NCBI GenBank assembly: GCA_022484595.1
Contig: JAKVLB010000001.1
Location: 1 to 64,000 of the forward strand
Length of the DNA stretch: 64,000 nt
Source: Mageeibacillus sp.
Lineage (GTDB): Bacteria; Bacillota; Clostridia; Saccharofermentanales; Saccharofermentanaceae
Reading direction: 5' to 3'
Shown: one piece after another, positions 42,906-57,653 of the stretch
How the letters are laid out: each line of letters opens with the position of its first letter
How positions within the stretch are numbered: the first letter of the stretch is position 1
Position numbers and translations under genes: made by a program
The notes under the pieces: generated by a model
Database searches by the model: none
Told to the model about the DNA's origin: nothing
What the model saw: the letters and a program-made list of their open reading frames with translations, nothing else

Positions 42906-44264
42906 TCAGTTTCGCATCGAGTGAATTGGTGCAGGTATTCTTCCTCCGCGGTTAATAAAGTCAGCGCAGGACTGACGGTTAACAGGCATTATCGGAGCAG
43001 TTCCCAGAAGCCCGCCGAATTCAACGCTGTCACCTACGCCCTTGCCGGGCACAGGAATCAGCCTTACGGCAGTTGTTTTGTTATTGAATGTACCGAGAGC
43101 CATCTCATCAGCAATAATTCCGGAGATTGTCTCAGGAGCTGTATCTCCGGGAATAGCAATCATGTCAAGACCTACGGAACAAACGCAGGTCATTGCTTCA
43201 AGCTTCTCAAGCAGCAGTGAACCTGATCTGGCCGCCGCTATCATGCCTTCATCCTCTGATACCGGAATAAACGCACCTGACAGACCTCCAACAAAAGAAG
43301 AGGCCATCGTTCCGCCTTTCTTCACGGCATCATTGAGCATGGCAAGTGCTGCTGTTGTACCCCATGTACCGCAGGTATCGAGTCCAAATTCCTCAAGAAG
43401 TCTTGCTACTGAATCACCTACAGCCGGAGTCGGAGCAAGAGACAAATCAATGATCCCGAACGGAACATTTAGTCTCTCTGACGCTTCACGCGCAACAAGC
43501 TCTCCGACTCTTGTAATCTTGAATGCAGCTTTCTTTATTGTCTCAGCCACAACGCCCAGATCTTTGCCCTTTACGCCTTCCAGCGCGTGCTTTACAACAC
43601 CCGGGCCTGATATTCCGACATTAATTACGCACTCAGGCTCACCGGGTCCAAGAAAAGCTCCTGCCATAAACGGATTGTCTTCAGGGGCGTTGGCGAAAAC
43701 CACCAGTTTTGCGCATCCGATTGCATCTCTGTCAGCAGATGCTTCAGCGGTCTGCTTTATAATATGACCCATATCGCGCACAGCGTCCATATTGATTCCT
43801 GACCTTGTTGATGCAAGATTGATGCTTGAACATACAAAATCGGTTTCAGCGAGAGCCTGAGGAATTGAATGAATCAGAATCTCATCAGATTTTGTATATC
43901 CTTTCTGTACAAGAGCGGAGAATCCGCCGACAAAATTAACACCACATGCTTTTGCTGCTCTGTCGAGTGTCTTTGCAAACATGACATAATCAGTCGAACC
44001 GGATGCCGCAGCTATCATAGAGATAGGTGTTACAGAAATTCTCTTGTGAATAATAGGTACGTTGTATTTCTTGGATATCTCTTCACCGACTTCCACAAGT
44101 CTTCCGGCACATCTGCAGATCTTATCGTATATCTTCCTGCAGGCCTCATTTGCATCGCTGTCGCAGCAATCATAAAGGGAAATACCCATAGTTATTGTTC
44201 TTATGTCCAGGTGCTGCCTGCTGAACATATTCATTGTTTCTATAATCTCATACTCGTTAATCAT
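42906..44264 (-). CDS. PFL family protein (UPF0210/DUF711)
   Basis: 452 residues of a widespread family distantly related to pyruvate formate-lyase-type glycyl radical enzymes, though without a demonstrated reaction. Recognisable blocks are [12 protein letters not shown] (about 118-129), [19 protein letters not shown] (about 207-225), [15 protein letters not shown] and GGRIPAP near the end. It is always paired in genomes with a small ACT-domain protein of the UPF0237 family, and here that gene lies 17 bases upstream. A ligand-regulated enzyme is the usual inference. The function is unknown. Confidence 0.9.
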
Positions 44265-44281: not shown

Positions 44282-44566
44282 TTAAATTCTGTGCATGGCA
44301 TTGAAAAGACCTGTGTGCTGTATTGTTATCTGTACACCGAGTTTGTTGCCGAGCTCGCGCAGCTTATCAGATATGTCAGACTTCTCAATGACTACTTCCT
44401 GCAGATCAACAATCATTACCATCGTGAAAATTTCTGCCAGTATTGTCTGAGATATGTCATTAATATTGATGTTATATTCCGCAAGGAGATTGGAAATCGC
44501 CGCAATAATGCCGACTCTGTCATTGCCCAACACCGTTATAACGGCAGTATTCTTATCAGAATTCAT
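44282..44566 (-). CDS. ACT domain protein (UPF0237)
   Basis: 94 residues from ATG 44566, set by GGAGGT about 9 bases upstream. A longer frame to 44641 overlaps the upstream gene and has no ribosome site. The single ACT domain begins [23 protein letters not shown] (read in parts) and continues with the [11 protein letters not shown] turn expected of amino-acid-sensing ACT folds. Directly followed by the PFL-family gene, its constant genomic partner, which it may regulate. Confidence 0.92.
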
Positions 44567-44607
44567 AAAATTAAAACCTCCAAATAAATGTTCTAAATGA
44601 TTATACC

Positions 44608-46230
44608 TTAAATAAGAGATGAAATAAGTGCATTTGCACAATTAATTCCATCGATAGCGGATGACATTATGCCGCCGGCATAGCCGGCGCCTTCTCCGCA
44701 CGGGAATAAACCTTTGACATTGAGGCTCTCATATGTTGTGTGGTCACGAAGAATTCGTACTGGAGATGAGCTACGAGATTCAACGGCGGTAAGGACACTG
44801 TCGGGTGAATCAAACCCTTTTATTTTGGATCCCATAATGGCTATACCGTCCTTGATAGTCTCAAGAATCGGCGCAGGAAAAATTCTCGAAAAATCAACAG
44901 GCTTGACACCAGGCTTATATGTAGGGTTGATTTTACTGAACTGTTCAGTGCGCTTCTGACCGCAAAGGTCACCATAGCGCGTTACCGGTGCCTTGCCCGT
45001 GGCGCCTCCGGCAAGAAATGCGAGATGTTCAAGTTCTTCTTGAAAATTCATGCCGGAAAGGACACCTTCACCGTAATCTCTACTGTCAACAGGCACAAGA
45101 AGCGCGCTGTTTGAATTCATTCCGTTTCGAGCACGATAACTCATTCCGTTTGTACAGACTGATTCCTGATCACACTGAGAGGCGATGACCTCTCCACCCG
45201 GACACATGCAGAAAGTATAAAGTTTCCGGCCTGTCTTAGTATTGCATGACAGCTTATAATTCGCGGCGGAAAGATCTGCCGTAGTTGCTGTATCAATACC
45301 GTATTGAGATATGTCAATCTCAGAGCGCAGATGTTCAATTCTGACTCCGACCGAGAACGGTTTGGATTCAAGCCTGCATCCGCTGTTATTGAGCATTCTG
45401 AATGTATCACGGCTGCTGTGCCCTATTGCTAGAATGAGCCTGTTGCAGAGCAAATCGCGTTCTCCGTCGGCATTACTGATTCTGGCTGATACCAGGCAGC
45501 CGTTCTCATCTGTTTTATACCCCTCGAAAACTGTATTGAACCAGACCTCACCGCCGAGAGATTTAATGTCATTTCGAATTCCGACTACCGCCTGCCTGAG
45601 ATAATCAGTACCCACATGCGGATGCGTATCATAGAGAATGTCTCCTGGCGCTCCGTGAATTACAAGTATGCGGCTAATAAAATCTTTCAGATCGGAAGTT
45701 ACACCTGTATACAGCTTCCCGTCCGAGAATGTGCCTGCACCGCCTTCTCCAAACTGAATGTTTGAATTACTCTTAATCTTGGATTTGCCTGACTTGAAAG
45801 CTTCCGTGTCTCGGACTCTTTCTTCCATAATTGTCCCGCGTTCGATAATTATCGGCTTAAGTCCATACTTTGCCAGTACAAGTCCTGCAAACAGACCTGC
45901 CGGTCCCTCGCCTACGACTACAGGCCTTATGCTCTTCCCCGCTATATTATTCACCTGTTCTGCATATGGAAAAGCAGACTTGAGTATTCTCTTGTTACGT
46001 GCTTCGTAATCCTCATTATCCAAGAAATCAAAACGGTATATCAATTTAGCGCGGCCATGTCTGGCGTCAACAAATTTCCTGTCTATCAGAAGCCTTGAAT
46101 AACCGTCTTTACATTCCTGAGCACAGCTTCTAAGTTCTGAATCGGAAGAATTCAAAGCAGCATTCATTATTCTCAATGAATCTGTTACTGATTCTGTTTT
46201 CTTCTGCGGTATAAATTCAAGTTCAAACAT
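44608..46230 (-). CDS. FAD-dependent oxidoreductase (COG2509-type)
   Basis: 540 residues. A polar N-terminal domain (about 1-100) precedes the Rossmann FAD site VVVGEGPAGLFAGLVLA (about 103-119) and a second conserved block, NIQFGEGGAGTFSDGKLYTG (about 157-176), diagnostic of this uncharacterised family. The C-terminus closes the FAD site with GLFPCGEGAGYAGGIMSSA. The substrate is unknown. The start overlaps the end of the next upstream flavoprotein gene by eight bases, so two flavoproteins are made together. Confidence 0.88.
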   Translation of the reverse strand: MFELEFIPQKKTESVTDSLRIMNAALNSSDSELRSCAQECKDGYSRLLIDRKFVDARHGRAKLIYRFDFLDNEDYEARNKRILKSAFPYAEQVNNIAGKSIRPVVVGEGPAGLFAGLVLAKYGLKPIIIERGTIMEERVRDTEAFKSGKSKIKSNSNIQFGEGGAGTFSDGKLYTGVTSDLKDFISRILVIHGAPGDILYDTHPHVGTDYLRQAVVGIRNDIKSLGGEVWFNTVFEGYKTDENGCLVSARISNADGERDLLCNRLILAIGHSSRDTFRMLNNSGCRLESKPFSVGVRIEHLRSEIDISQYGIDTATTADLSAANYKLSCNTKTGRKLYTFCMCPGGEVIASQCDQESVCTNGMSYRARNGMNSNSALLVPVDSRDYGEGVLSGMNFQEELEHLAFLAGGATGKAPVTRYGDLCGQKRTEQFSKINPTYKPGVKPVDFSRIFPAPILETIKDGIAIMGSKIKGFDSPDSVLTAVESRSSSPVRILRDHTTYESLNVKGLFPCGEGAGYAGGIMSSAIDGINCANALISSLI

Positions 46231-47474: not shown

Positions 47475-48140
47475 TTACTTGTTGCCGCTGTCAAGCAGCC
47501 TTATGGTTCTCTTGTACTTACTGTCATCGAAAGGAACGCACCCCGTCTCATCTATCAGAAATCTGGCCATTTCCCTGAGATCGACCACATCACCTGAAGT
47601 AAGTTCAAGTTCAAGTTCACAGATAGGTTCAACGGCATCTCCGGAGACGTTCTCAATCTTGCCGCAGTCAAAACATGCCTCCATAATGCTGTCGCCAAAC
47701 CCGAAAGTATAGACGGTTCTGTAGAAATAATTGGAACAGAGTTCCTTAAGCTCATCGTCACTTACACCATCTAAAGCCTTATCAAGAAGTTCATCCGGAT
47801 CATCGGAGCCTGAAGACAGATTCTTGAATTCGCTGATTCTGAAATTCTTAGTATTGCTTCTGACATTCCACTCGTAACGCTGATGGAGACCATCTGTGAC
47901 AGCTCCGCCGTATTTGACGGTAAATTCATAGTAATCATCTCCGCGGCCCGAATAATGACGTTTTCTGATCATTGCACCGCGAGAAGTAATCTTGCGGTCT
48001 TCAGTATCAAGATAGGTATTCTCAAGCAGAACAGGACTGACCTTTGATGTGTCAAGACAGAAATCAGAGAAGCAGTCCGCTTCAGTTATCGCGAACATAG
48101 ACTCTTTATCCTTGAATCCAAGTTTAATCTCAGTTTCCAT
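47475..48140 (-). CDS. CYTH domain protein (triphosphate tunnel metalloenzyme family)
   Basis: 221 residues. The N-terminal METEIKL gives the ExExK signature of CYTH/TTM proteins, and alternating charged strands (IRKRHYSGRG, YYEFTVKYGG, CELELELTSGD) build the tunnel that binds triphosphate. Family members include inorganic tripolyphosphatases, thiamine-triphosphatase and class IV adenylate cyclase. Which of these this one is cannot be read. It follows the DUF5711-like gene after 9 bases and is one base from the flavoprotein gene. Confidence 0.85.
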   Translation of the reverse strand: METEIKLGFKDKESMFAITEADCFSDFCLDTSKVSPVLLENTYLDTEDRKITSRGAMIRKRHYSGRGDDYYEFTVKYGGAVTDGLHQRYEWNVRSNTKNFRISEFKNLSSGSDDPDELLDKALDGVSDDELKELCSNYFYRTVYTFGFGDSIMEACFDCGKIENVSGDAVEPICELELELTSGDVVDLREMARFLIDETGCVPFDDSKYKRTIRLLDSGNK

Positions 48141-48149
48141 ATAATCTCC

Positions 48150-49316
48150 TTAGTTCAATGTGTGAACGCCACCGGTGGAAACAACACATAATTTGTTACC
48201 GGAGATAAAATTCATCCTTATTATGTCTTCATCTACTGAGAAATCATTTGTAACCGTGCCGTTTGAGTTATAAATAAATACACGCTTGTCAACACTGATT
48301 GCGTATGTGTCACCTGTTACGGAAACCGCATTGATAACAGAACCGATATCAGAGTTATACAGTACAGTATTTGATGAATCAATTACTGCAAGTTTGTTGA
48401 GCTGTGATACTCCGTCTGAATAAGCAATAAACAGTCTGTTGCCGACTTTATCAACATGACTTATCGCAGAAAAATCAAAGTTAATCTGTGACAGACTGTC
48501 ATTCTCAATCTGATAAACAGAATTTGCCGTAAAGCAATACAGTTTATTATTACAGTAATACATTGAAGAGAACAACGTACTGTCTTCAGTTGTGTAAATA
48601 GATTTATCTGCAACATGAACTCCATCATCAGCACTGGTTATTGAAAACAGTCTGATGTACGGAACAAGCACAGCCCCGCTTGTGTTGAGCGTCGAGATGG
48701 CAAGCTCGTCTGAAGAATCATTGAAACTGCAGCATATCGGATATCCTGAATTATACGAACTCCAGTCGGAAATCATATTTCCCGCAGTGTCATACAGAAT
48801 TACATCACCGTAAGAGTCACCATTGTCAGTAATTACTGCGGTAAGTCCGGTAGATGAGATTGTTACAGCTTTTACCTGATTCTCCGTAGGCACGGTAAAA
48901 AGAAGTTTATCCTGGGTAAGAACCGAGAAAGAGTAACCGTTAAGATCAAATACAGCGGAATAAACACCATAAGAGACGCACTGAGGATTCTGGTAAGATA
49001 TATCCGCCGAATAAACTTCATTTCCTGACAAAGTCAGATATGATATGCGCTCATTCGTTACCTTAAGAACGCCCTCTCCGAACGGATACAGCTTCTGTGC
49101 TTCTGAATACTCGCAGCTGAAACCTCCCTGACCTGACAACTTAATTTGCGTGTCGGCACCGGACAATGAATCAATTCTTCGAGAGACCCAGAACAAAAGC
49201 ACAAGACAGAGCAGCAGGATTGCCGTAAAAAACATGACAACAACTGTCAGGCTCCTTCCGGGTTTCCTGTTACTTCGCGGCTTGCTGATATTATGTTTCT
49301 CTTCCTGTTCCATCAT
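48150..49316 (-). CDS. DUF5711-like single-pass membrane protein with beta-propeller-like domain
   Basis: 388 residues. A basic cytoplasmic tail (to about 22) and one transmembrane helix (about 23-45, VVVMFFTAILLLCLVLLFWV) are followed by a large outside domain made of repeated short strands, such as VLKVTNERISYLTLSGNEVY and LAVIDSSNTVLYNSD. This is consistent with a WD/NHL-like propeller. No enzymatic motif is visible. It sits 18 bases after the DUF4340 gene in the ABC cluster, so an envelope role with that transporter is inferred. Confidence 0.75.
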   Translation of the reverse strand: MMEQEEKHNISKPRSNRKPGRSLTVVVMFFTAILLLCLVLLFWVSRRIDSLSGADTQIKLSGQGGFSCEYSEAQKLYPFGEGVLKVTNERISYLTLSGNEVYSADISYQNPQCVSYGVYSAVFDLNGYSFSVLTQDKLLFTVPTENQVKAVTISSTGLTAVITDNGDSYGDVILYDTAGNMISDWSSYNSGYPICCSFNDSSDELAISTLNTSGAVLVPYIRLFSITSADDGVHVADKSIYTTEDSTLFSSMYYCNNKLYCFTANSVYQIENDSLSQINFDFSAISHVDKVGNRLFIAYSDGVSQLNKLAVIDSSNTVLYNSDIGSVINAVSVTGDTYAISVDKRVFIYNSNGTVTNDFSVDEDIIRMNFISGNKLCVVSTGGVHTLN

Positions 49317-49334
49317 AAACTTTTAATGTCAGAA

Positions 49335-50867
49335 TCAGGCGACATTTGATTCCGTCGTATTCTCCGTAGTATCAGTTCCAGAGTCTGACGGAATGTCATA
49401 TATACCGTCAATACTGTTGTCAATAGCCGTCAACAGCATACTGTATGCCGGCCATACACCATATGAATAGGTATCGGAACCACCATCGTTGAACAACTCT
49501 CTTGAATATACATAGAACTGAGAGTATTCACCATTGACGTAAACATAATAAGAATCAGTGTCACGCTGATAGAAATCATATTCTGTGGTCTCGTAATCAT
49601 TGGTCACAAATGTCAGAGTCATAACCGGAATTGCATCGGGACTTACAGATGATTCACTCTCTATTCCGCCTATTTCGATGCAGACCAGACTTTCAAACAA
49701 CATTGCACAGTATGAACGATCGTCTGAGTTGAAAATCTTAGCATTCCTGCCGTTTATTGTTACCGTTGAATCATCATCGGATATTGCCGCCGTATCATTT
49801 ACGTTGAGTTCAAAATCAAATGAATCGCCGTTGTATGTACCCTTGATTGAAGAAATATCACAGGCTGAATAGTAGGAAATATATGAATTAAGAAGCGTAA
49901 GTGCCGGAGTCTCAAGACCCTTTATCTGCTGATCCGACACCATGAAATAATTCTTCATTCCGGCAATATAACCGTAGTAATAGCCGCCGAGATCAGATGA
50001 GAAGTAAATATCCTTCTTCTCACCGCTGTCCATAGTAATGCAGAAATGGAAAGTTGGTTTATCAAGTCCGTACTGAGAAAGCTGATCATCTGAAATATCC
50101 ATAAAAGACGTGATTTCAAGTGTGCAGACATATTCAACCAGATTCTCAAAATATGCACTTGCCTGAATATTAAAAGGCTTATGAATGAAATACTGCGGAT
50201 CTCCGGTCTCCTCATAAATCTCACATGTTGCTTCAATATTGAGACCATCTGTGGTTCTGTCGAACTCAACTGTATCAATCTTCGAATAGTCAACATCAAG
50301 AATCTGCGACTCCAGAAGATCAATACCCTGATATTCAGCCTTTATCATTTTTGCAACAGCAACCGTATAGACATCATTTGATCCGTCTACCCTCATATAG
50401 CAATAACTTGAATCAGGAGTCTTGTTCCCGAGGTAGACTACAGATTTTGAGCCGTCAAATGTCTCCAGTGTAATCGTATACACAGGGTTATCAAGTCCAT
50501 ACTCTGCAAAGTTGCCTTCAGATGAAATCAAAGCTTCACATGAATAGGATGAAAGCAATGCCACATAAGAACTCATATCTTCCTGAGAATAGCTCAGTGT
50601 ATCGTCCAGGTCGTCGCCTTCATAGGCATAGAGCAAAGAGCCGTCAGTATTCTGCGATGCCGTAATCTTAACGGTCTTGAAATCTGCATTGCTGCTCTGT
50701 GTAGTAATTGATTTGACAGTATTGTTATCGACATACAAGACATCTATAAGTGTATCTTCAGTCTCTGCCGGCTTTGTGTTCTTCTTATATATGAAAAACA
50801 CAATTGACCCGATAAGCAGCAATATCATCAAAACAAAAGGAATTAATAAATTCTTAACAGATTTCAT
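49335..50867 (-). CDS. DUF4340 domain protein, Gld-type ABC system companion
   Basis: 510 residues from ATG 50867. The start is chosen one base after the upstream stop with AGAGGAAG nearby. A membrane helix (about 7-27) precedes an extracytoplasmic region of repeated DUF4340 units, each with a strand such as YGLDNPVYTITLETFDGSK or YGLDKPTFHFCITMDSGE. The C-terminus is a low-complexity acidic/Ser/Thr tail (about 490-510). DUF4340 proteins regularly accompany GldG-like ABC systems. The ligand is unknown. Confidence 0.82.
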   Translation of the reverse strand: MKSVKNLLIPFVLMILLLIGSIVFFIYKKNTKPAETEDTLIDVLYVDNNTVKSITTQSSNADFKTVKITASQNTDGSLLYAYEGDDLDDTLSYSQEDMSSYVALLSSYSCEALISSEGNFAEYGLDNPVYTITLETFDGSKSVVYLGNKTPDSSYCYMRVDGSNDVYTVAVAKMIKAEYQGIDLLESQILDVDYSKIDTVEFDRTTDGLNIEATCEIYEETGDPQYFIHKPFNIQASAYFENLVEYVCTLEITSFMDISDDQLSQYGLDKPTFHFCITMDSGEKKDIYFSSDLGGYYYGYIAGMKNYFMVSDQQIKGLETPALTLLNSYISYYSACDISSIKGTYNGDSFDFELNVNDTAAISDDDSTVTINGRNAKIFNSDDRSYCAMLFESLVCIEIGGIESESSVSPDAIPVMTLTFVTNDYETTEYDFYQRDTDSYYVYVNGEYSQFYVYSRELFNDGGSDTYSYGVWPAYSMLLTAIDNSIDGIYDIPSDSGTDTTENTTESNVA

Positions 50868-50868
50868 A

Positions 50869-52395
50869 TTACAGATTCTTCCTCTTCTTATATACAACGG
50901 TAGCAACTATTACAAGTGCCAAAGGAATAATAACCATAAACACATACAGAACTGCAGATGAAACACCGGATGTAGCCTTTGTGCTGTCTATCTTGTAATT
51001 ATCAAGCGACTTAGACTCAACATCTACCGAGTTGGCGTTAACACCGCTGCCGAGAAGCATTCTAAGGCATGAACGGAGAAACTGCACATTGGTGTCACTG
51101 TAACCGTAGTTCGAGATATATGAATCAGACGAGAAATTTGTCGTACCAAAAGCGATAACTTCAGGAGGATTGTCCATACCGTCAAATGTTGAATACATTC
51201 CGATATTGTACTGACTTGCATTCTCATACTGGGACATGTTGCCCTGGGCATCAACCTGTACAGCTGTTGCTGAATCACTTGTTGTGGCAATAGGTGTAGT
51301 CTTGATGTATGAATAAGGCGTATCGTAATCTCTGATAGGTCTTGCGTAAGAACTCTTGAACTGCGAGAACGAACTGAAGTCGTCAGAAAGTGACTGGAAA
51401 TCGGCAGATATATCGACGAGTGAGTTGAAACCAGTGTCATCGAGGTAATATGTTGAGTCCTTCTCACAAATTACGTAAGGATCCATATTTAGATTCATCA
51501 TGTTCAGAACTGTATTTAGATTGGTGAACTTATCGGCTGAATTTGAATAGAAGTTAACAGCAGAGAAGAAATTGCCGCCGGCATTCAGATAGTCCTGAAT
51601 CTTAACAGCCATACGCTCGGAAATATCACTGTTTGGACCGTTAAGAATCAAAAGATCACAGTCATCAGGAATCTCGAAATTATCTGAAACCTCAAGTGTC
51701 TCAGTATCGCAGCCGAGAGCCTTAAGGATATTTGTAAGCTGTGTCGAACTGTCATCTTCATTAAGTCCGGAAATGATATATGCCTTGCTTGCATAACCGT
51801 TTGTAAGCTGAACAATTGTGTTTGTAAAAGTATATTCAACGTTATTGGCTGTCGGAAGATACTGACCCTGCTCAAGATACTGTGAATCATACGTGAAGCA
51901 GTCAATTGGCGCAACAACCTGAACTTTACCGTTGCATGACACAACAAAGTTGTCGGCAGAAAGATCATAAGCTCCTGAAGGATCCAGTTCGTTAATGATT
52001 GACGGATAAGTCTCAGGATTAATGTACTCCACTGTTATTCTGCCGTCTGACTTGGCTGCATAGTCGTCAAGAAGCGGAACAATGTACTCATAAGGAGTAT
52101 CAGTCAATGACTCAGGCTTGTCCATCAGTCCGACAATTCTGATTTTATAGTCCTTAGGCAAGGTGTTCAGATAATCCTGAGTCACCTTGGTAATTGAGTT
52201 CTGTCCTGAAACAGAGAAATCAAATGTAAGGGCATCTCCCAGAAGTGAATCGAAAAATATATTAATCAAAAGCGCAATTGCGATAAGGATTAATACTGCG
52301 CCGATAGAATAAAACTTGAGAGACTTGGCTCTCTTATCGGACACTTTCTTTGCAGAAGCTTTGTCTGCGTTTGAATTAGCGGTCTTCTTACTCAT
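50869..52395 (-). CDS. GldG-like ABC transporter auxiliary protein
   Basis: 508 residues. A lysine/serine-rich cytoplasmic tail, a first transmembrane helix (about 29-50, IGAVLILIAIALLINIFF), a large outer domain of the ABC-2-linked GldG type and a last transmembrane helix near the C-terminus (VLYVFMVIIPLALVIVATVV). Characteristic stretches are FSVSGQNSITKVTQDYL, YINPETYPS and DLLILNGPNSDISERM. In Bacteroidetes, GldA-GldF-GldG are linked to gliding, while in Clostridia the role is not established. It follows the permease gene by 18 bases. Confidence 0.87.
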   Translation of the reverse strand: MSKKTANSNADKASAKKVSDKRAKSLKFYSIGAVLILIAIALLINIFFDSLLGDALTFDFSVSGQNSITKVTQDYLNTLPKDYKIRIVGLMDKPESLTDTPYEYIVPLLDDYAAKSDGRITVEYINPETYPSIINELDPSGAYDLSADNFVVSCNGKVQVVAPIDCFTYDSQYLEQGQYLPTANNVEYTFTNTIVQLTNGYASKAYIISGLNEDDSSTQLTNILKALGCDTETLEVSDNFEIPDDCDLLILNGPNSDISERMAVKIQDYLNAGGNFFSAVNFYSNSADKFTNLNTVLNMMNLNMDPYVICEKDSTYYLDDTGFNSLVDISADFQSLSDDFSSFSQFKSSYARPIRDYDTPYSYIKTTPIATTSDSATAVQVDAQGNMSQYENASQYNIGMYSTFDGMDNPPEVIAFGTTNFSSDSYISNYGYSDTNVQFLRSCLRMLLGSGVNANSVDVESKSLDNYKIDSTKATSGVSSAVLYVFMVIIPLALVIVATVVYKKRKNL

Positions 52396-52413
52396 TTTAT
52401 ATTACTCCTTTGA

Positions 52414-53181
52414 TTAACCCTGGCTCCAGCGCTTCTTTTCGAGTATACGGAATGTTATGTATAAGAATACAAGAGATACCGTAAGACAATATAAAAGCGC
52501 GGAAACAGAGAAAACACCAAATCTGAAATCTGAAGTCTTGGCAAACGGATCAAGCCAGTTGATACCTGACGTGACTGCATCTCCAATCGATGCTGCCTTC
52601 TCACTGTTGATTCCGAAGAATGAGAACGTGGCGGTAAATGCAGAACCGATATATGTGGCAATCGTTGATATAAGCTGAATGATAAGAATCAGTATAAACG
52701 AAAAGATAGCAGAAATTATCTGACTGTCTGTTATCACCGACGCAAAAAGACCTATAGCGATGAACATCATTGCCATAAAGAAGAATACTATAACAGAACC
52801 CCATGCACCGATTCCGATCACTCCGCCGCAGAGTGCAGTGACAATCATATGAATGAACACATTGATGAACATTACTCCGAACAGAGCGCATGCCGCAAGA
52901 AATTTGCCTGCGACGACAGAAAACAGATTAACCGGAGCGGTGTAATACAGAACTTCCGTACCGCGCTTCTTATCCTCAGCAAACAGTCCCATCGTAATGA
53001 TAGGAACGATTACAACGAAGAAAGAGCGCAGTGAGATTATCTCGCTGGCAATGTTTACCTTTCCGTTTGCAAACTGGGAGTAAAATATGAAACCGGAAAG
53101 AAATGAGAAAATGGCAATCGCCACATAGCCCACCGGTGACCTGAAAAATGAAAGAAACTCTCTCTTAAAAATAGCGTACAT
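52414..53181 (-). CDS. ABC-2 type permease (GldF-like)
   Basis: 255 residues with six transmembrane helices. The N-terminal MYAIFKREFLSFFRSPVGYV is typical of GldF and NosY permeases, with the KRGTEVLYYTAPV coupling segment (about 68-80) in the first cytoplasmic loop. It lies 10 bases after the ATPase gene. It is expected to form the membrane part of an exporter or mechanochemical machine with the flanking ATPase and GldG-like protein. Confidence 0.9.
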   Translation of the reverse strand: MYAIFKREFLSFFRSPVGYVAIAIFSFLSGFIFYSQFANGKVNIASEIISLRSFFVVIVPIITMGLFAEDKKRGTEVLYYTAPVNLFSVVAGKFLAACALFGVMFINVFIHMIVTALCGGVIGIGAWGSVIVFFFMAMMFIAIGLFASVITDSQIISAIFSFILILIIQLISTIATYIGSAFTATFSFFGINSEKAASIGDAVTSGINWLDPFAKTSDFRFGVFSVSALLYCLTVSLVFLYITFRILEKKRWSQG

Positions 53182-53191
53182 AAACCTCTCC

Positions 53192-54130
53192 TTACACTGC
53201 TGAAGTAATACTTAGGAAGACTTCTTCAAGGGACGGGTCAAGAGAACGCAATTCAAGAATTGGCCAGCCTCCCTTTGACATAACAAAGAAAATACCGGCA
53301 CGAAGGTCAGTAACGGAATTTGTTACCAAAGTCACTTCAAGTTCATGAATATCACCGTTGCTGACTCGTGTTCTGACGTCAACAACTCCGGGCAGGCCGT
53401 GAATCTTCTCGGAAACTTCCTTAAGAGGACCCTTGAAAGACAGCAAAAGCCTTGAAGAACCGGATAATCTCTTGGACAGGTCGGTAATCGTGTCAACAGC
53501 CGCGACCTTGCCGTTGTTAATTATTACAACCCTGTCTGCGATTTCCTGTATTTCAGACAGAATATGAGAACTGATTATTACTGAATGAGACTTGGCTAAC
53601 GTCTTGATTAGTTTACGTATCTCAATTATCTGGTTAGGATCAAGTCCTACTGTCGGCTCATCAAGAATAAGAATAGACGGATTGCCGACAAGTGCCTGTG
53701 CGATACCGACACGCTGCTTATAACCCTTTGACAGGTTGCCGATAAGGCGGTCAGCAACGCTTGTTATCTTTACCATAGAGACAATTCTTGCAAGATGCTC
53801 TTTGCGCTCGCTCTTCTTGATGCCCTTGAGATCACATATGAAATCAAGATACTCAAGAACCACCATATCGTTATATAACGGCGGAAGCTCCGGGAGATAA
53901 CCTATATCTTTCTTTGCAAGCTCGGGTTCCTCCAGAATATCATGACCATTTACCTTAACTGTGCCCGATGTAGAAGACAGATATCCGGTAATAATGTTCA
54001 TCGTAGTTGACTTGCCGGCACCGTTGGGTCCCAGAAAACCCAAAACCTCGTCATCATTTACGGTAAAAGAGATTCCGTTTACGGCCTTCTTGTTACCATA
54101 GCACTTTACCAGATTATTAATTTCAATCAT
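53192..54130 (-). CDS. ABC transporter ATP-binding protein (GldA-like)
   Basis: 312 residues. Walker A GPNGAGKSTT (about 34-43), the Q-loop after GYLPELPPLY, the signature LSKGYKQRVGIAQAL (about 132-146), Walker B ILILDEPTVGLDPNQ (about 152-166) and the switch histidine in SSHILSEI are all present. A C-terminal regulatory extension (about 225-312) matches the CcmA/GldA subgroup. GGAGGT precedes ATG 54130. First gene of the transporter cluster. Confidence 0.94.
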   Translation of the reverse strand: MIEINNLVKCYGNKKAVNGISFTVNDDEVLGFLGPNGAGKSTTMNIITGYLSSTSGTVKVNGHDILEEPELAKKDIGYLPELPPLYNDMVVLEYLDFICDLKGIKKSERKEHLARIVSMVKITSVADRLIGNLSKGYKQRVGIAQALVGNPSILILDEPTVGLDPNQIIEIRKLIKTLAKSHSVIISSHILSEIQEIADRVVIINNGKVAAVDTITDLSKRLSGSSRLLLSFKGPLKEVSEKIHGLPGVVDVRTRVSNGDIHELEVTLVTNSVTDLRAGIFFVMSKGGWPILELRSLDPSLEEVFLSITSAV

Positions 54131-54216
54131 GGTTTACCTCCGTAATTTTGCGTACAAGCTATTTTATATCAAACTCTCAGAATACCAAAGAGAAATATAG
54201 AGAAATTCGAAGCAAA

Positions 54217-54987
54217 TTATACATCGTTCAGTTCCATTTCGACACAGAATACTTTAACGTCGTTATTCTTGTAACCATAAACGCTTGCATATCCCTGTCT
54301 GGAGACAACGTAAAGTTCAACCTTCTCCCCTGCGTGAACCTCACTGTTGTAGTTTATAGTAAGTCCTTTGATGATATTGATATCAACACCGGACTTAAAA
54401 ACGGCGTCATATGCCCATGCTGTATATCTTGAATTGTTTACGTGTCTGTTGCGGTCAAGCTCAGAGAAATCCGCAAACTTGATAATTGTCGGTTCGCAGC
54501 CCGTAAATGAAGACCTGTCAGGGAAATCAAGCTTCGGACAATCATATCCATAAACCTTCAGTGCAGGCTCCGGATCATACACGGGCAATTCAGGTCTTTT
54601 ACGCGCAATGACAGGACGGTGGGTATTCCAGTCGGCCAAAATCCATGTCGATGTTGACCTTCCGATTACATTGCCTTCGGAATCAACTATTCTGAAATCT
54701 CTGCCGTAGCTGATTCTGTCAATTCCTGTGGCCCATGTCTGGACTTTGAAGTGCTCCTCCCATGAAGGAAGTCTGTCAAAAGAAAGCTTCATTCTCAAGA
54801 TAATCCAGCAGATATTCTGTGTCTTCAGGAACTCTGTTCCGTATCCGATATTTCCGGAACCGTGCTCAGCTGCCTCCTGAAGATCGCCAATCAACACTGA
54901 AGCGAAAAGTTTGTCTCCCATGCCGCACTCTGTTGCCTTGCAATATGTGTCAAGCTGCGCATATGACTTAAGATCTGATACATCCAT
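54217..54987 (-). CDS. Acyl-ACP thioesterase (FatA/FatB family)
   Basis: Releases fatty acids from acyl carrier protein. 256 residues forming two hot-dog folds. The first half contains NICWIILRMKLSFDRLP, and the second half has the conserved LDRNRHVNNSRY block (about 182-193) that supplies active-site Asn and His residues. No signal peptide, so cytoplasmic. The ATG shares one base with the stop of the upstream membrane-protein gene, so the two are translationally coupled. Confidence 0.88.
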   Translation of the reverse strand: MDVSDLKSYAQLDTYCKATECGMGDKLFASVLIGDLQEAAEHGSGNIGYGTEFLKTQNICWIILRMKLSFDRLPSWEEHFKVQTWATGIDRISYGRDFRIVDSEGNVIGRSTSTWILADWNTHRPVIARKRPELPVYDPEPALKVYGYDCPKLDFPDRSSFTGCEPTIIKFADFSELDRNRHVNNSRYTAWAYDAVFKSGVDINIIKGLTINYNSEVHAGEKVELYVVSRQGYASVYGYKNNDVKVFCVEMELNDV

Positions 54988-57626: not shown

Positions 57627-57653
57627 TTAGCACTCTAATTGGTTGAGTGCTAA
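57627..57653. promoter_or_regulatory. CIRCE operator (HrcA binding site)
   Basis: TTAGCACTC (57627-57635), nine bases, GAGTGCTAA (57645-57653): an exact match to the CIRCE inverted repeat bound by the heat-shock repressor HrcA. It lies between the promoter and groES, so it controls both chaperonin genes. The hrcA gene is not in this window. Confidence 0.97.

Follow-up and report, generated by a model that had tools for sequence, protein, structure and literature searches.

The window analyzed here is a stretch of 64,000 nucleotides from a Mageeibacillus sp. genome (contig JAKVLB010000001.1, positions 1 to 64,000), and our focus is a run of five adjacent genes on the minus strand at positions 48150-54130, which encode an ATP-binding cassette (ABC) ATPase, a permease, a GldG-like auxiliary subunit, a DUF4340 protein and a DUF5711 protein. 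These genes represent two modules, not one. The genes for the ATPase, the permease, GldG and DUF4340 make up a constant four-gene ABC-2 core, which is also present in other classes of the phylum, and DUF5711 is mainly a neighbor of CvpA. The core is of a known kind, and the new part is DUF5711 as a likely partner shared by this pump lineage and CvpA. We tentatively favor, at a little less than an even chance, the reading that the core is an ABC-2 export or extraction machine with GldG and DUF4340 as its outside part and DUF5711 as a docking partner. GldA, GldF and GldG were named for gliding, yet their relatives occur in many genomes without sign of gliding.

The constancy of the core was seen in a survey of 148 genomes of the window's order, in which genes were scored as neighbors if their midpoints were located within 6 kb on one strand. 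The GldG domain PF09822 was identified in 102 of these genomes, DUF4340 in 108 and DUF5711 in 133, and the genes for DUF4340 and GldG were neighbors in 98 of the 100 genomes that contained both (99 if a second DUF4340 match in genome G072 is counted). A survey of 299 genomes of the phylum identified DUF4340 in 48 and DUF5711 in 24, and 25 of the 47 DUF4340 genomes besides the window's own were taken for locus inspection. In these 25 loci, located outside of the order, the neighbors of DUF4340 included GldG in 23 cases, the permease in 22 and the ATPase in 21, the latter with a profile that also picks up unrelated ABC ATPases, but in none of the 25 was a gene for DUF5711 found next to the module, from which we conclude that what stays constant is the module of four genes. 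Furthermore, two natural fusions of the permease and GldG, with DUF7088 and ABC_transp_aux domains, were identified (L051:6341-8485, in which the ABC_transp_aux match was under its cut-off, and L099:9851-12061), and these support a permease-GldG complex. The L099 fusion was found in one of the two DUF4340 loci without a separate gene for GldG. It was also noted that the other such locus contained a gene for DUF4340 (L101:8077-9723) with no pump gene nearby.

Within the order, the genes for DUF5711 and DUF4340 were located within 6 kb of each other in 100 of 104 genomes, and those for DUF5711 and GldG in 91 of 100. The two genes were always on different contigs in the four exceptions to the former association, of which G078 and G026 had one of the genes near a contig end, while G035 and G086 belong to a single family, here called f2; the pump cassette locus of G035 (L047) was without DUF5711. 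The class survey comprised 146 genomes, in which DUF5711 was identified in 105, CvpA in 123 and DUF4340 in 74. Here, proximity was defined as at most 4 kb on one strand for CvpA and at most 4.5 kb for DUF4340, and 14 genomes without CvpA coordinates were left out. Where coordinates were available for both, which was the case in 88 genomes, the gene for DUF5711 was near that for CvpA in 81; it was near that for DUF4340 in 15 of 64, and five of these 15 belong to the window's order. A preliminary description of the window had proposed to check whether all five families are constantly associated; this was confirmed for DUF4340, which is nearly always linked to the ABC genes, but in most genomes not for DUF5711. 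The presence of DUF5711 in the class correlated with that of DUF4340 (counts of 64, 41, 10 and 31), with a Fisher p-value of 9e-5, in which shared ancestry is ignored.

Outside of the order, DUF5711 was near DUF4340 in 10 of the 59 genomes of the class that contained both, and in these ten the gene order was DUF4340, DUF5711, CvpA. A membrane protein that we take to be YkvI-like (three such proteins had weak Pfam matches or none) was encoded between DUF4340 and DUF5711 in seven of the ten. It was also noted that a gene for the YkvI-like protein was located directly upstream of DUF5711, followed by CvpA, in L187-L191, L193, L196 and L198. As judged from sequence, an ilvD-like gene was next in L188, L189 and L192, and an ilvB-like gene was also present in L188.

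The families of the order differed in which of these genes they contained. Of the 75 genomes of the window's family, f1, 70 contained both DUF5711 and DUF4340 but not CvpA, one contained DUF5711 alone and four contained none of the three; the genomes without any match were 87% to 94% complete, so these gaps may be technical. CvpA was identified in 0 of 75 f1 genomes with PF02674, and in 0 of 58 with a profile of members from the order and the class, a search in which no genome was positive. No gene for CvpA was found beside DUF5711 in the window, where a gene for a CYTH-domain protein adjoins instead, and no CvpA match was obtained in the window's genome, G000. All three of DUF5711, DUF4340 and CvpA were present in 18 of the 23 genomes of f3. 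In f4, 10 of 12 genomes contained DUF5711 and DUF4340, and the remaining two were positive for DUF5711 with profiles made here (L069, L070); four f4 genomes with weak CvpA matches under the cut-off were scored as having none. The pump genes were placed between the genes for an acyl-acyl carrier protein (acyl-ACP) thioesterase and DUF5711 in f1, f3 and f4. The usual order in f2 was groES-groEL-(thioesterase)-DUF5711-(CYTH, FAD), where FAD denotes flavin adenine dinucleotide-type enzymes, with the pump genes absent, and nine further f2 genomes contained CvpA and no DUF5711. Three f2 loci (L047, L050 and L051) contained pump cassettes, which were located away from DUF5711 and beside a sugar-type ABC importer, as named from its sequence.

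These patterns bear on an alternative that we consider less probable, although it deserves serious weight, namely that DUF5711 is part of a CvpA-based envelope function and is merely co-transcribed with the pump in this lineage, the machine itself consisting of four genes. The frequent adjacency of DUF5711 and CvpA in the class argues for this explanation, as do 17 f2 loci for DUF5711 in which the genes for the permease, GldG and DUF4340 were near in none, groEL in 16 and CvpA in 12. In a quick, unrooted tree of 58 DUF5711 proteins, f2 was moreover nested within the order beside four f3 rows (support 99), and the two f2 pump modules included in the module tree described below were placed in another clade. 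However, f1 retained DUF5711 by the pump although no CvpA was found there, the modules linked to DUF5711 were confined to a single clade, and the DUF4340-DUF5711 junction recurred outside of the order.

The module tree, also quick and unrooted, was inferred from the joined GldG and DUF4340 proteins of 57 loci, with L051 and G086 not included. Every module labeled as being located beside DUF5711 clustered within one clade of 33 rows with a Shimodaira-Hasegawa-like approximate likelihood ratio (SH-aLRT) support of 100. This clade spanned several families, for which reason the association of the pump with DUF5711 looks old and lineage-specific and no accident of this genome. Four rows in the clade were unlabeled: L054 and L055, in which DUF5711 was identified by a six-frame search, L197 and L203. 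We also considered whether the f2 pump cassettes were moved copies of the native pump, which was likely not the case, as L047 and L050 fell into the other clade, with long branches in this quick tree. The simplest reading of the sequence patterns would be an old linkage, after which f2 lost its native pump while f1 and f4 lost CvpA, such that some families apparently dropped the pump and kept DUF5711, while others dropped CvpA and kept both the pump and DUF5711.

The five genes in the window were confirmed to be real, and Pfam assigned a family to each of them. The ATPase (GldA-like; 53192-54130; ABC_tran, E = 7e-33) contained the Walker A motif GPNGAGKS, the signature LSKGYKQR, a Walker B motif and an SSH H-loop. 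The permease (GldF-like; 52414-53181; ABC2_membrane_2, E = 1.2e-9) had six membrane segments according to hydropathy, the method used for all membrane segments reported here, with no loop much longer than 50 residues. The GldG-like subunit (50869-52395) had two membrane segments in all, one N-terminal and one C-terminal, with the domains DUF7088 (E = 4.6e-7; 30.4 bits, cut-off 27.8) and ABC_transp_aux, which is of the GIFT type (E = 2.1e-12; 47.3 bits, cut-off 34.7), in between. Cysteines that were invariant among the GldG proteins inside the family lacked conservation in a wider set. The DUF4340 protein (49335-50867, with an ATG at 50867) matched its family in two stretches (E = 2.9e-29), and the DUF5711 protein (48150-49316) matched PF18975 (E = 1.3e-31; 110.6 bits, cut-off 26.3); each had one membrane segment. 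The preliminary description, in which an ABC machine of the Gld type bears large domains on the outside, was supported.

The AlphaFold2 model of the DUF5711 protein (mean predicted local distance difference test score, pLDDT, 90.3) consisted of a long helix at the N-terminus followed by 32 strands, and resembled propellers with a best Z-score of 23.6 (8bbg, 5mzh), eight-bladed chains being among the best matches. The protein is therefore predicted to be a membrane-anchored eight-bladed β-propeller, with the eight blades read from the 32 strands of the model, and a propeller-like outside domain had indeed been anticipated. The model of the DUF4340 protein (mean pLDDT 92.2) had one N-terminal helix and a large alpha-beta outside part. 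A fold search of the PDB provided no convincing match to the whole protein, and a second look gave Z-scores of 6.5 and 6.3 over about 100 residues (4r7r and 2mct), which is a common level. Sequence searches of the PDB gave best E-values of 0.068 for DUF4340 and 0.7 for DUF5711 and no match for the permease, and the top match of a profile search with the GldG-like protein was a weak one to IFT52 (E = 0.013). We rejected a placement of the ATPase nearest to the ABCA lipid exporters: the top whole-sequence score of ABCA is the sum of two ATPase domains, and we therefore drew no substrate hint from it. The single-domain matches listed for the ATPase in the PDB were the uncharacterized bacterial ATPases 4yer and 1vpl.

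The gaps within the five genes, from the ATPase to DUF5711, were 10, 18, 1 and 18 bases, in agreement with the 1 to 18 bases first described, but the run does not end there. It continues on the same strand, after a gap of 9 bases, with the genes for the CYTH-domain protein (47475-48140), an HI0933-like FAD enzyme (TIGR00275; 46223-47494, with TTG as the listed start) and, as the last gene of the tight run, a second FAD-type oxidoreductase that was named from its sequence and is here labeled FAD540 (44608-46230). Spacing was compared in the best 79 of 100 related loci, which were picked via their gene for DUF5711 and are recorded under names such as Saccharofermentans, Ruminococcaceae and Clostridiales, with many of them sampled from the rumen or the gut; each junction was counted in those of the 79 loci where both genes were called as neighbors. 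Gaps of at most 30 bases were found at all junctions between the ATPase and the permease (69 of 69), the permease and GldG (72 of 72), GldG and DUF4340 (76 of 76), DUF5711 and CYTH (72 of 72), CYTH and HI0933 (62 of 62), and HI0933 and FAD540 (64 of 64), and at 72 of the 76 junctions between DUF4340 and DUF5711. The tight arrangement of the five genes is therefore more than coincidental. DUF4340 adjoined DUF5711 in all 79 loci and all five genes were present in 72; in the seven others, DUF4340 starts less than 2.5 kb from the end of the stretch. Upstream of the ATPase, a gap of 86 bases (54131-54216), where a promoter may be located, separates the run from the gene for the thioesterase (54217-54987, minus strand), a frequent upstream neighbor outside of the tight run; this gap was at most 30 bases in just 1 of 61 related loci, with a median of 74. 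A transcription unit thus likely begins at the ATPase, although promoter-like matches in the region were no more frequent than in shuffled sequence. The five genes were ruled out as a natural unit, since the tight run goes on and DUF5711 is separable.

The gene order, domains, ATPase motifs, linkage and single clade are all read from the sequences, the propeller is predicted, and the complex, its sidedness, direction and substrate, and the docking are inferred. According to the reading that we favor, the ATPase and the permease would form an ABC-2 exporter or extractor, and GldG, with its two membrane segments, and DUF4340, with one, would represent the fixed outside part. GldG would supply the GIFT-type domain; GIFT domains have been proposed to bind sugars and are present in the oligosaccharyltransferase subunit Wbp1 (PMC7226087; this and the other papers cited here are referred to for the portions of their text that were available). 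ATP hydrolysis would then push a surface molecule, for which a glycan or glycolipid is our best guess, outward via the permease to the GldG and DUF4340 domains. In one old lineage of the module, DUF5711 would dock on the outer face, and given that its family is found beside CvpA in other Clostridia, it would probably not be a core subunit, but link the pump with another function of the envelope.

Several observations weigh against a functional tie between DUF5711 and the pump. The tight spacing also takes in the CYTH and FAD genes, and co-transcription alone could thus account for it. DUF5711 and DUF4340 were apart in 49 of the 59 genomes outside of the order, some of which may be explained by contig breaks, and DUF4340 was missing in 26 of the 29 f2 genomes with DUF5711. 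The f4 loci L063 and L066 keep DUF4340, confirmed by Pfam in both, beside DUF5711 with no gene for the ATPase, permease or GldG nearby, and no PF09822 match was obtained in their genomes. A test of distance covariation, performed on the 33 of the 79 loci with all ten genes, was mixed: GldA, GldG, DUF4340 and DUF5711 grouped loosely, and the values for DUF5711 were 0.43 with DUF4340, 0.34 with the thioesterase, 0.23 with CYTH, 0.21 with GldG, which is no higher than with CYTH, and 0.02 with the permease. Shared inheritance of neighboring genes could produce all of these values, which are confounded by linkage.

It is also conceivable, if rather unlikely, that the ABC module exports nothing and instead uses the hydrolysis of ATP to move the domains that GldG and DUF4340 have on the outside, thereby driving an envelope enzyme or assembly factor, as in FtsEX and MacB-type machines. 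The large outside domains are consistent with such force transmission. So are observations from Flavobacterium, where a gldG mutation impairs type 9 secretion and lowers several proteins of the secretion machine and secreted proteins, with no cargo named (PMC5682007), and where GldA mutations reduce the levels of GldJ and GldK (PMC9127263). However, the permease, with its six segments and no loop much longer than 50 residues, belongs to the ABC-2 exporters, which is not decisive.

Gliding in Flavobacterium has been described as requiring GldA, GldF and GldG (PMC9127263). That the genes in the window encode a part for gliding motility or type 9 secretion carried over from Bacteroidota is nevertheless highly improbable. 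The top NCBIfam models were indeed GldA for the ATPase and GldF for the permease, and 17 of 28 GldG relatives matched the GldG model, but the ATPase (TIGR03522, 310.8 bits, cut-off 402.6) and the permease (TIGR03518, 85.7 bits, cut-off 288.5) scored below the curated cut-offs, and the GldG-like protein in the window had no NCBIfam match. None of 21 genomes had a GldL match over the cut-off and one match was weak, in a search in which no control genome was positive, and DUF4340 modules are found in many genomes of the phylum. Such a role was rejected on the basis of these scores and the GldL search.

No described function was found for the whole set of genes, as had been expected, in a search of open-licence papers, such that a description may exist elsewhere. 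The available text of these papers likewise provided no molecular activity for GldAFG relatives without gliding, for DUF4340, for DUF5711 or for CvpA. A DUF4340 domain is reported to be essential in Verrucomicrobium spinosum (PMC12283558) and PA4040 of Pseudomonas aeruginosa has been named as a DUF4340 protein (PMC8088628); the names PA4037-PA4040 were found in no title or abstract of the open-licence papers listed for them. Archaeal relatives of GldG have been tied to a predicted secretion complex in a comparative study (PMC5898192), and CvpA is needed for deoxycholate resistance in enteric bacteria (PMC6705877). The sole mention of DUF5711, in the available open-licence text, was in a plasmid replication table and is an apparent slip for DUF5710.

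A broader and more doubtful proposal is that DUF5711 serves in the envelope of Clostridia as an exchangeable docking hub with the shape of a propeller, with CvpA and one GldAFG-DUF4340 lineage as its partners, of which lineages would have kept one, the other or both, and that DUF5711 would thus work with CvpA and the pump in a single envelope pathway that has yet to be described. The near-constant four-gene core, the two fusions and the apparent losses in different families turn a vague gene list into sharp tests by deletion and pull-down.

In the surroundings of the run, it was noted that the pump genes are located downstream of a groESL block. A perfect match to the controlling inverted repeat of chaperone expression (CIRCE), a heat-shock operator, was found at 57627-57653 upstream of groES, and shuffled sequences contained an average of 0.06 such matches. 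Beyond the FAD540 gene, there are genes for what are presumably a short ACT-like protein (44282-44641) and then a UPF0210-like protein (42906-44264), each of which clustered in three loci, the window counted, of one compared set.

Compared with known systems, the pump in the window has the same three kinds of subunits as GldA-GldF-GldG of the gliding Bacteroidota (TIGR03522, TIGR03518 and TIGR03521), and the signature LSKGYKQR of its ATPase compares with the LSKGYRQR that has been reported from F. johnsoniae (PMC9127263). It differs from the gliding set in that its proteins score below the cut-offs or have no match, in that no GldL match over the cut-off was obtained in the 21 genomes searched, and in the presence of DUF4340 as a near-constant fourth gene. 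The predicted fold of DUF5711 resembles that of BamB (Z-scores of 20.2-20.6, root-mean-square deviation of 4.2-4.3, 302-305 aligned residues) and the designed eight-bladed protein Tako8 (Z-scores of 20.3-20.5), but DUF5711 is anchored by a membrane helix, has about 10% identity to BamB and the eight-bladed propellers, and was seen in no context of outer-membrane assembly. The same DUF5711 family is found in the DUF5711-CvpA pair of Clostridia, often with the presumed YkvI-like permease, whereas the window's family has no CvpA match and carries its propeller gene next to those for the pump, the CYTH-domain protein and the FAD enzymes. The copy in the window is of the same kind as the uncharacterized ABC-2 modules of other bacteria with ABC_transp_aux and DUF4340; most of the 25 loci inspected outside of the order had the four-gene order of the window, and among the loci inspected, DUF5711 was a neighbor in one clade of modules only.

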